A DNA stretch of 64,000 nucleotides from an uncultured Flavobacteriales bacterium (lineage in GTDB: Bacteria > Bacteroidota > Bacteroidia > Flavobacteriales_D > Crocinitomicaceae): contig CAJXJK010000012.1 of the NCBI GenBank assembly GCA_913054135.1, positions 62,001 through 126,000 of the forward strand. The letters run 5' to 3'. This document shows, piece after piece, positions 31,091 to 58,124 of this stretch. Each line of letters opens with the position of its first letter. Within the stretch, counting starts at the first letter, position 1. The position numbers and the translations under genes are program-made. Below the pieces are notes generated by a model. That model worked only from the letters and a program-made list of their open reading frames with translations, was not told where the DNA came from and did not search any database.

Positions 31091-31465
31091 GTGAAGCCTA
31101 ACAAAGAGATATTACAAGCTAAAATTGATGCACGTCATTACTCACGTGAATTAATTAGAGATGTTTTTCAAGCAACTGAACATTTCCCAAAGAATGACCC
31201 TGAGCGCATTGCTTCTCAATTGAGAAAGAAAGTTCTTTCGGCCTCATCCTTTTTAGCGCACGGAACAGTAAAGCATGATGTTGATGAACAAAAACAAGAT
31301 TTGTTGATTGTTATGGGCGAACTTAGAGAAGTACTCAAATTCATCACAATTGCACATCATTTAAGATACGCTACCGATTTGGAAAAATCGAAAGTAAGAA
31401 ATTCAATTTCCAATGTCATCAATGCATTAGATAAGCTAGTAATTTCCCTGGGAGGCTTTGAATGA
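31091..31465 (+). CDS. Four-helix-bundle protein (S23/Avd-like)
   Basis: A 124-residue all-helical protein from a GTG start. Segments ARHYSRELIRDVFQATEHFP, then SQLRKKVLSASSFLAHG, fit the S23/Avd four-helix-bundle pattern (FPxxE...SQlRrA..S...nIAeG). Such proteins form pentamers with a basic pore in known members. Known members occur in 23S rRNA intervening sequences, in diversity-generating retroelements and as free-standing genes; neither an rRNA nor a reverse transcriptase is present here. Function unknown. Confidence 0.65.
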   Translation: MKPNKEILQAKIDARHYSRELIRDVFQATEHFPKNDPERIASQLRKKVLSASSFLAHGTVKHDVDEQKQDLLIVMGELREVLKFITIAHHLRYATDLEKSKVRNSISNVINALDKLVISLGGFE

Positions 31466-55615: not shown

Positions 55616-56425
55616 ATGCAATCAATTATAGAAAAAGCGTGGGATGACAGGTCTCTTTTAGAAACTTCAGAAGTTCAAGAAGCAATCAATTCGGTAATAG
55701 CTCAAATTGATAGTGGTGAGCTGAGAGTTGCTCAACCATTAGAGAATGGCGAATGGCAAGTTAACGAATGGGTGAAGAAAGCAGTTGTCATGTATTTCCC
55801 AATGAGAAAAATGGAAACTATTGAAGTAGGACCGTTTGAGTTTCATGATAAGATGGCCTTGAAAACTGGTTATAAAGAAAAAGGAATTAGAGTGGTGCCT
55901 CATGCAATTGCAAGATATGGTGCATATATTTCAAAAGGTGTTATCATGATGCCTTCATATGTTAATATAGGCGCTTATGTTGATGAAGGAACTATGGTTG
56001 ACACTTGGGCTACAGTAGGCTCATGTGCCCAGATTGGAAGAAACGTACACCTCAGCGGTGGAGTTGGAATTGGCGGAGTTTTAGAACCTCTTCAAGCGGC
56101 ACCAGTGATTATAGAAGATAATGCATTCATAGGATCAAGATGTATAGTTGTTGAAGGTGTTCGTGTTGGCAAAGAAGCAGTGTTAGGTGCGAATGTTGTA
56201 CTGACCATGTCAACAAAAATAATTGACATCACAGGTGCTGAACCAGTTGAAACAAAAGGTTATGTTCCTGAAAGATCTGTAGTAATTCCTGGTTCTTATA
56301 CCAAAAAGTTCCCAGCTGGAGACTATCAAGTTCCATGTGCATTGATTATTGGTAAAAGAAAAGAAAGTACGGATAAAAAGACTTCTTTGAATAATGCTTT
56401 AAGAGAGAATGATGTTGCGGTATAA
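55616..56425 (+). CDS. dapD: Tetrahydrodipicolinate N-succinyltransferase
   Basis: A 269-residue left-handed beta-helix enzyme of lysine/diaminopimelate synthesis, adding succinyl from succinyl-CoA to tetrahydrodipicolinate. MPSYVNIGAYVDEGTMVDTW (in part), GVGIGGVLEPLQAAPVIIED (in part) and the hexapeptide-repeat region are typical. The N-terminal ~90 residues are helical. No other dap genes nearby. An IVS-like element begins 12 bases after its stop. Confidence 0.95.
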   Translation: MQSIIEKAWDDRSLLETSEVQEAINSVIAQIDSGELRVAQPLENGEWQVNEWVKKAVVMYFPMRKMETIEVGPFEFHDKMALKTGYKEKGIRVVPHAIARYGAYISKGVIMMPSYVNIGAYVDEGTMVDTWATVGSCAQIGRNVHLSGGVGIGGVLEPLQAAPVIIEDNAFIGSRCIVVEGVRVGKEAVLGANVVLTMSTKIIDITGAEPVETKGYVPERSVVIPGSYTKKFPAGDYQVPCALIIGKRKESTDKKTSLNNALRENDVAV

Positions 56426-56437
56426 TTATGAATTTGT

Positions 56438-56807
56438 AATTATAAATTATGAATAGAGGGAATCCCGTTGTGGACAAAAGCTTTGCTTTTGCTGTCAAAA
56501 TTGTAAACGCATGCAAGAAACTGAATTCAGAAAAAAAGGAATTTGTACTTTCCAAACAACTCTTGAGGAGCGGAACCGCAATAGGTGCTTTAATTAGAGA
56601 AAGTCAAAATGGTGAATCTAAAAAGGATTTCATTCATAAATTGGCAATAGCACAAAAAGAATGTGACGAATCTTTGTAGTGGATTGATCTTCTTTTCGAA
56701 ACTAACTATTTAATTAGAAGTGATTTCGAAGATCTTAAAAGAGATTGTACCGAACTCCTAAAATTGTTACGAAGCATTATTATTTCAACAAAAAACAATT
56801 TATAATT
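56438..56807 (+). repeat. Terminal inverted repeats around four-helix-bundle gene
   Basis: AATTATAAATT at 56438-56448, directly before the ATG, and its exact complement AATTTATAATT at 56797-56807, which contains the final TAA. Outward of both, TGAATT follows in inverted orientation, extending the match imperfectly to about 20 bases. The pair delimits the gene exactly. Confidence 0.65.
56449..56805 (+). pseudogene. Four-helix-bundle (S23/IVS-type) gene interrupted by TAG
   Basis: The frame codes for a TIGR02436/S23-like four-helix bundle: FAVKIVNACKKLNSEKKEF, SKQLLRSGTAIGALIRES (cf. QlLRSgtSiganirEa) and the C-terminal helix ECTELLKLL-like DCTELLKLLRSI. Codon 77 is TAG (56677-56679); the frame then runs on with WIDLLFETNYLI to TAA at 56803, giving the full ~118 residues. 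In relatives the broken site reads ETLYWL, so TAG probably replaced a Tyr codon. Called a pseudogene; read-through or sequencing error are alternatives. Known relatives lie in 23S rRNA intervening sequences. Confidence 0.8.
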
Positions 56808-56830
56808 CTGAATTCATCATTCATTATTAT

Positions 56831-57031
56831 TTAGGCTGCTACCTCATCAGAGAGACATTTTTCATCAGGACGAGCACCACAAAAGCTGCAGTTTTCACCT
56901 TCACCATTAATTAATGGGTTGTTGCTAGCACAAGTACCTTCAAATTCGCCTCCTTTTTTAGCCCATATTTTGATTGCGATTCCTGCGAATCCTAACGCTA
57001 ATAAACCTATTGCAATAAGTGCTAATTTCAT
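56831..57031 (-). CDS. Small membrane/secreted Cys-containing protein
   Basis: A 66-residue protein: one TM helix or uncleaved signal (~3-25, LALIAIGLLALGFAGIAIKIW), then a hydrophilic part with GTCASNNP and ENCSFCGARPDEKC, four cysteines resembling a small zinc or Fe-S site. It is a known type of short Bacteroidota 'membrane or secreted protein' without assigned function. Start at 57031; a 30-residue upstream extension overlaps a terminator and is rejected. Confidence 0.75.
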   Translation of the reverse strand: MKLALIAIGLLALGFAGIAIKIWAKKGGEFEGTCASNNPLINGEGENCSFCGARPDEKCLSDEVAA

Positions 57032-57141: not shown

Positions 57142-57603
57142 TTAAGAAGGCATGTTTTTCATTTGAGTTCCCAAAGCGACAATGAAGCCACCTGAAGACA
57201 GCAAACTAATCACAACCAGTCCGACATTTCCGCCTTGTTGAGTTCCTTGAACCAGACTCATCAATAATAGTAGGCACCATAAACCTGTTACGATTGCATA
57301 CATGATAAAGGCTCCTTTTTTTCCATTCATCATCTTCACAGCAGCTATTAAGCCTAAAACGTGAAGTACGCTAATTCCTAGAATTATTGCCACAAACATT
57401 CCCATGAAGTCGCCCATCATTCCGCCAAAAGTTCCACCAAATGAGTTTGCTAATGACAAAAGCCAAAGTGTACCAATAAGAAACATTAACAACCAAAGGC
57501 TATTACCGACAATACTCAAGATTGAAAGCGTTTTAACTACTTGAGGTACCTCTTTGTTTCCAGTTGAAGCTACATCAACTAATTCATCTTCTAATTCATC
57601 CAT
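57142..57603 (-). CDS. Small four-TM membrane protein, paralog A
   Basis: A 153-residue protein: short acidic N-terminus (MDELEDELVDVASTGNKEVP), then about four TM helices with Gly/Met-rich loops. Start and fold match the next gene (57678-58124): both read VPQVVKTLSILSIVGNS and end in QMKNMPS/QLKNMPD. Unknown function; no catalytic residues. Each copy has its own terminator. Confidence 0.7.
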   Translation of the reverse strand: MDELEDELVDVASTGNKEVPQVVKTLSILSIVGNSLWLLMFLIGTLWLLSLANSFGGTFGGMMGDFMGMFVAIILGISVLHVLGLIAAVKMMNGKKGAFIMYAIVTGLWCLLLLMSLVQGTQQGGNVGLVVISLLSSGGFIVALGTQMKNMPS

Positions 57604-57677: not shown

Positions 57678-58124
57678 TTAATCTGGCATGTTTTTCAATT
57701 GCATTCCGAATGCTACTATGAAACCAATAGATGACACAGCACATAATAAGGCTAAGATACTTCCTTGAAATCCAGAAAGTAACATTAAAAGACCCCAAAT
57801 ACCTGTTACGATAGCGTAAAGGATAAATGAACTTTTTTGACCTTTTCCTAATTTAATTGCAGCAATTAATCCAACCACGTTTAAGGCTAACATTAAAAGG
57901 AGAATAATAATGACGATACCCATCATTTCACCCATTCCTGCAGGCATCATTCTACCTAAAGAACTTGAAGCTCCAAGGAACCACAATGTAAATATTAACA
58001 TAATAAGAGCCCAAACACTGTTTCCAACGATACTTAAAATAGATAACGTTTTTACAACTTGAGGAACTCCGCCGTTAGATGTGCTTCCAGCATCAACTAA
58101 CTCATCTGATAATTCATCACTCAT
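57678..58124 (-). CDS. Small four-TM membrane protein, paralog B
   Basis: A 148-residue protein, paralog of 57142-57603 (shared VPQVVKTLSILSIVGNS near the N-terminus and a GFIVAFGMQLKNMP end). Acidic N-terminal ~20 residues, then four TM helices. The adjacent 58155-58589 gene is another small Gly-rich membrane protein, suggesting a local family of paralogs. Function unknown. Confidence 0.7.
   Translation of the reverse strand: MSDELSDELVDAGSTSNGGVPQVVKTLSILSIVGNSVWALIMLIFTLWFLGASSSLGRMMPAGMGEMMGIVIIILLLMLALNVVGLIAAIKLGKGQKSSFILYAIVTGIWGLLMLLSGFQGSILALLCAVSSIGFIVAFGMQLKNMPD

Follow-up and report, generated by a model that had tools for sequence, protein, structure and literature searches.

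An S23-family gene behind dapD, set between matched arms of roughly 7-bp units, as a possible worn copy of a short selfish-type element

The S23/IVP gene that lies behind dapD in the window (the whole stretch of 64,000 nucleotides that was analysed) is enclosed by two short arms that largely complement each other. Relatives of this gene are commonly enclosed in the same manner, and the two arms of one element vary together. With moderate confidence, we regard the copy behind dapD as a worn, ORF-broken representative of a short selfish-type element, in which an S23/IVP gene is bracketed by a pair of arrays of ~7-bp units, which as a rule are mutually inverted. The sequence-only reading had come upon a single, worn instance of what is a general element.

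The features at the dapD site are listed in Table 1. The 5' arm has its edge at the dapD stop codon, and units like those of this arm can be read by eye in the 3' arm to about position 56830. A perfect inverted repeat of 11 bp had been reported earlier, and it is present: AATTATAAATT at 56438-56448 abuts the ATG (56449), and the TAA stop codon at 56803-56805 lies within its reverse complement, at 56797-56807. The repeat extends beyond these 11 bp to 25 nt with 84% complementarity (56424-56448 with 56797-56821). The 11-mer occurs three times in the window, compared with 0.28 expected occurrences, and none of 100 shuffles reached three. An exact inverted repeat of at least 11 within about 30 nt of start and stop was found at 7 of 118 relatives, the dapD copy included, and at 1 of 222 control ORFs. 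TRF reported no tandem array at the dapD copy, which is too degenerate for an array label.

Table 1. Features at the dapD site of the window.
Feature	Position	Strand	Basis
dapD, upstream co-directional neighbour	55616..56425	+	ORF; NF008808, 365.4 bits (cut-off 204)
5' arm, degenerate 7-bp units (TAATTAT, GAATTTG, TAATTAT, AAATT; by eye)	56423..56448	+	
S23/IVP four-helix-bundle gene, TAG-broken	56449..56805	+	PF05635, TIGR02436, PDB 2RLD
In-frame TAG inside the S23 gene	56677..56679	+	
3' arm, complement of the 5' arm, overlaps the stop codon	56797..56821	-	inverted pair, exact 11-mer
Small convergent gene next to the S23 gene	56831..57031	-	ORF; no NCBIfam match

Three profile and structure matches place the gene in the S23/IVP protein family, as had been proposed from its sequence. 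Its first 76 aa match PF05635 with an E-value of 9.5e-18 and 64.8 bits (cut-off 33.8), and reading through the TAG improves the E-value to 2.5e-27. With the same readthrough, TIGR02436 ("four helix bundle protein") gives 105.6 bits, where the cut-off is 24, and the S23 protein of this copy matches PDB 2RLD with an E-value of 1.4e-34. On the coding strand between the arms there is only the S23 ORF, with no transposase.

PF05635 matches were present in at least 158 of 200 genomes of the same family, with at least 13 places in the richest genome and three in the source genome. To compare flanks, we assembled a first set of 122 loci, comprising the two other source-genome copies, two groups of 30 (the dapD copy included) and 60 picked by place, among the matches listed. 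Full flanks were available for 118 of these loci (L009, L070, L077 and L091 were left out). A second set held the best 80 of 575 GTDB loci, with groups assigned from record titles, and pooling gave 202 loci that represent 110 sites as defined by shared flanking genes. A further ten loci out of 35 records came from cyanobacterial plasmids; these were scored with 160-nt flanks and no control set, and two of them (L266 and L267) represent a single element sampled from two strains. All loci are good-scoring, non-random members; thus, the fractions given below need not hold for distant members. Six relatives of the S23 gene occur in viral contigs, and the only locus with an archaeal title (L208) has a flank too short for scoring.

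Flanks of 120 nt were scored by reverse-complementing the 3' flank and aligning the 5' flank with it, and a score of 15 or more was called strong. Strong inverted matches were found at 65.3% of the 118 loci, compared with 2.3% of 222 control ORFs. Direct matches were found at 23.7% of these loci and 2.7% of the controls, and matches in either orientation at 74.6% and 4.5%. The GTDB set gave strong inverted scores at 42 of 57 loci with Bacteroidota titles (controls, 4 of 51) and at 16 of the 21 loci whose titles name other phyla (controls, 0 of 20). The latter include SAR324, Phycisphaerales, Geobacter, Acidobacteriota, Marinamargulisbacteria, Omnitrophota, Nitrospirae, Elusimicrobia and Clostridia. 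One of them, L189 (titled Limnohabitans, score 13), has both flanks in common with Flavobacterium fluvii L177 and is probably mis-binned. Another, L164 (score 19), is titled Ignavibacteriales, a group near Bacteroidota. Without these two loci, the count is 15 of 19. Among the cyanobacterial plasmid loci, 8 of 10 have strong inverted scores, and the other two have only direct matches (73 and 16).

The earlier description of an IVS-like element bounded by inverted repeats therefore extends to relatives, which do carry flanking inverted repeats in the 118-locus, GTDB and plasmid sets. A search around other four-helix-bundle genes had been proposed as a check on that description, and the homologues examined here have such repeats. 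When loci are grouped by site, 68 of 104 sites have a median inverted score of 15 or higher, and either orientation reaches this score at 80 of 104. Among 196 loci, 87 match in inverted orientation only, 27 in both and 13 in direct orientation only, with 24 between cut-offs; the 45 that reach 15 in neither orientation count against a general element.

The dapD copy has an inverted score of 17. Lower scores, which again speak against a general element, belong to the two other source-genome copies (14 and 11) and to the copy that follows dapD in a related genome, G004 (11); by eye, the GAGTGATGAG-like arms of the G004 copy lie partly outside the 120-nt flank that was used. The source-genome copy with a score of 11 lies elsewhere in the window; it is a distant PF05635 member with a GTG start (31091-31465, plus strand; 43.6 bits) and no clear arms. 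The one with a score of 14 (L001, C1:113872-114168, minus strand) has a clear CGAAACA heptad array on its 3' side only.

The arms are built from units of about 7 bp. Autocorrelation of the flanks peaks at a lag of 7 (0.388, compared with 0.299 in controls) and again at 14, 21 and 28. Lags of 8, 15 and 22 form a second, weaker series, and the S23 ORFs themselves have no such peaks. In the GTDB set, the lag-7 values are 0.370 compared with 0.342 in controls for Bacteroidota titles, and 0.371 compared with 0.305 for the others. The raised value in the Bacteroidota-titled controls arises partly because control flanks overlap neighbouring arms. Strict tandem 7-bp arrays (81% self-match in 28 nt) are present at only 38 of 196 loci, compared with 11 of 222 controls, so most arms are degenerate; this low count, like the TRF result at the dapD copy, weighs against the proposed element. 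The 5' arms of one close pair (L024 and L030) differ by a 7-bp step.

At orthologous sites, the identity of the S23 protein tracks that of its neighbours, with a correlation of 0.73 in 553 pairs. The arms behave differently. We compared the match of an arm to the opposite arm of its own element (self) with its match to the opposite arm of the orthologue (cross). Where flank identity is 40-65%, the self score is 17.4 and the cross score is 10.0, with self higher in all 60 of 60 pairs. At 65-75% the scores are 17.7 and 10.6 (self higher in 189 of 195), and self remains higher in 83 of 100 pairs at 75-85%, 127 of 174 at 85-93% and 15 of 24 above 93%. Because orthologue pairs are non-independent, we also counted by multi-member site, where self is higher at 19 of 24; the 4 reversed sites and 1 tie are further points against a general element. 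The dapD-site copies of the source genome and G004 are not clearly orthologues: the G004 copy pairs with a copy of G027 (96/85), and the source-genome copy joins both (82/88). The self and cross scores indicate that the arm match is local to each element, and that its two arms vary together in cis.

A repeat dialect characteristic of each genome, which would point to a trans-acting process, was considered and rejected. Elements within one genome are no more alike in their arms (11.8, 75 pairs) than elements of different genomes (12.1, 4000 sampled pairs).

The elements are mostly placed in line with the genes around them. The upstream neighbour is co-directional at 177 of 202 loci, opposed at 15 and not found at 10, and both neighbours are co-directional at 161 of 202, compared with 26 of 57 ORFs in the window, the one stretch that served as control. 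At the dapD copy, the downstream neighbour is convergent. The protein encoded at shared sites is under purifying selection, with a median dN/dS of 0.30, a value that rests on 106 usable pairs of 553, many of the pairs having high dS.

Sites are occupied in some genomes and vacant in others. In relative G008, a homologue of the small convergent gene abuts dapD directly and no S23 element is present. One element of G004 has an enoyl-CoA hydratase-family gene on one side and a 3-hydroxyacyl-CoA dehydrogenase gene on the other; this site is empty in the source genome and in G011, with 3-4 bases from stop to start, and G008 and G026 also lack the element. A second G004 element, whose neighbours are presumably purM and prfA, is absent in six aligned relatives (G003, G005, G006, G011, G015 and G026), and the source genome has another gene at that site instead.

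Such presence and absence, along with the spread of 202 loci over 110 sites, is what a classical mobile element would produce, with the arms as terminal inverted repeats and a transposase supplied in trans. The arms are nevertheless unlike transposon ends, because they are neither shared between the copies of one genome nor conserved at orthologous sites. The unit also encodes no transposase, only the S23 ORF, and no clear target duplication was visible in two empty-site comparisons, whose sequences are too diverged for a firm result. We therefore consider a classical mobile element quite unlikely.

The arrays might alternatively have been there first, with the S23 gene inserting into them or staying beside them, so that they would not be part of the element. 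The dapD site of G026 has, directly after dapD, an array of more than 200 bp made of GAGTGAT and GAGTTGT units (L040, 2308 to about 2530) with no S23 gene, and direct-only arms would follow from insertion into a single array. However, inverted-only loci far outnumber direct-only ones (87 versus 13), and aligned empty sites show no arrays, with only a few bases from stop to start in the source genome and G011. This explanation appears very unlikely to us. At the dapD site of G042, GAGTGAT-like and GAGAATC units are visible in the 150 nt viewed. At the enoyl-CoA hydratase-family site, the same genome has heptad-like arms together with another gene and no S23 gene (L288); these arms are possibly a footprint left after S23 gene loss.

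If arms and gene form one unit, the match between the arms could be kept either by selection on RNA or by copying of DNA. In the first process, base pairing between the arms within the operon transcript would loop out the S23 cistron, RNase III would release it, and compensated mutations would preserve the match. Several observations are in keeping with such a stem, including the excess of inverted over direct matches (65.3% versus 23.7%) and the tendency of the elements to lie in sense orientation with co-directional genes on both sides. In the Coxiella IVS, the RNase III cut falls within the stem (PMC4990558). In minimum-energy folds, moreover, at least 10 flank-to-flank pairs form at 89 of 103 sites, compared with 51 of 103 when the 3' flank is swapped.

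The antisense strand, however, pairs almost as often (83 of 103 sites). Selection on a sense-strand stem would also be expected to leave G.U pairs, but mismatches in the arms of 135 loci comprise 188 G.U, 237 A.C and 631 others, which is no G.U excess and even a slight reversal (p 0.02). The ratio of G.U to A.C is 0.79, compared with 0.94 expected from composition. Arms that match only in direct orientation, at 13 of 196 loci, also speak against a stem. Thus, neither the G.U counts nor the antisense folds argue for selection acting on a stem in the sense strand, and we judge that explanation possible but doubtful. Copying in cis at the DNA level would fit the data better.

A folded RNA with the ORF in its loop had been suggested earlier for the dapD copy. 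As a working part of the element, a folded RNA is no more than possible: the predicted flank pairing speaks for it, and the antisense result and the lack of G.U excess weigh against it. The idea that the whole stretch folds remarkably did not hold up: positions 56425-56830 have a z-score of -1.59, and a fold of equal quality was obtained for 7 of 100 shuffles.

The TAG within the gene had been said to occupy an otherwise Tyr-like position, and five aligned relatives bear this out, with Y (4) or F (1) opposite. The reading frame of the S23 gene behind dapD is thus not intact. The part after the TAG is not visibly decayed when compared with intact pairs, since the ratio of post-TAG to pre-TAG identity is 0.72, versus 0.61 in intact pairs. 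This makes a recent nonsense mutation, or else a base error, the simplest account of the TAG. Undecayed sequence after the TAG would also be expected if the codon were recoded or read through and full protein were made. However, TAG is the terminator of 16 of the 51 window ORFs of at least 120 aa, and single stops of another kind occur in other copies (TAA in L144 and L242). Readthrough is accordingly a highly improbable explanation.

The construction of these elements resembles that of the Coxiella 23S IVS. According to PMC4990558, this IVS holds an S23p ORF, is bounded by terminal inverted repeats and has tandem heptamers ahead of the ORF, in strain-variable number. Both have an S23-family ORF inside terminal inverted repeats, and the heptamers of the IVS precede its start codon. 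Unlike the IVS, the elements reported here lie between protein genes, with no rRNA to cut, and their arms vary from element to element. An Rfam scan of the 64-kb window found no family and no rRNA, and no tRNA was found in the window either. Thus, the dapD copy, with dapD upstream and no rRNA in the window, falls outside the 23S IVS class on location, yet it is built like a member.

Two known groups of heptad repeats are also comparable. Cyanobacterial STRRs are usually 7 bp, hairpin-capable and intergenic, and their function is given as not known in PMC2670836. They share with the arms the 7-bp intergenic units and the capacity for hairpins, and clear arrays of this sort flank S23 genes on cyanobacterial plasmids; STRRs are described without an S23 gene, whereas here the arrays are paired around one. 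Intergenic arrays of the heptamer TAACTGA are known from Beggiatoaceae, Cyanobacteria and Bacteroidota (PMC4679880). These differ in having one unit sequence and direct repeats, and the main text of that paper makes no mention of S23, intervening or four-helix. Four helix bundle proteins of Flavobacterium columnare are listed in PMC5524665, where the portion cited does not remark on repeats. Our literature search, which left most subscription journals outside, returned no paper joining non-rRNA S23 genes with flanking heptad arrays, and one may exist.

Such an element could persist as follows. It would ride in a host operon transcript, much as the 23S IVS rides in pre-rRNA. Neither a stem nor cleavage by RNase III would do much harm between cistrons, and for this reason the element might be tolerated. 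The arms would lengthen and shorten as 7-bp units slip, and presumably they are rewritten onto each other by copying of DNA in cis, through template switching or conversion between the inverted arms. PF05635 resembles Avd of diversity-generating retroelements in sequence and structure, according to PMC10053308, and the S23 protein, as a relative of Avd, perhaps assists this arm copying. Neither a template repeat nor a variable repeat was seen here.

A broader proposal can be put forward tentatively, and we hold it to be somewhat unlikely as a whole. Free-standing S23/IVP elements might be the source of scattered heptanucleotide arrays, with the Avd-like S23 protein aiding the rewriting of arms in cis and with gene loss leaving arrays as footprints; the 23S IVS would then be a special case in an rRNA transcript. 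Matched arrays around S23 genes in several phyla link the question of what S23/IVP proteins do to that of what STRRs do, and both become testable. The arm pairs of S23 genes may thereby shed light on a kind of short DNA repeat that has been known for a long time. In addition, matched inverted arrays around a gene of ~120 codons offer a natural system for studying inverted-repeat copying.

Some individual loci have unusual contexts. On two cyanobacterial plasmids (L259 and L261), the S23 gene is part of a CRISPR operon, with cas6 on one side and cas4 on the other, and one of these copies has inverted arms while the other has long direct arms. In Nostoc edaphicum (L258), an S23 gene with long inverted arrays of the TAGGGAG type is located between two ribonucleotide reductase genes and runs in the opposite direction. 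Within the window, the adjacent minus-strand genes at 57142-57603 and 57678-58124 encode similar small membrane proteins and, by eye, are probably a tandem duplication.
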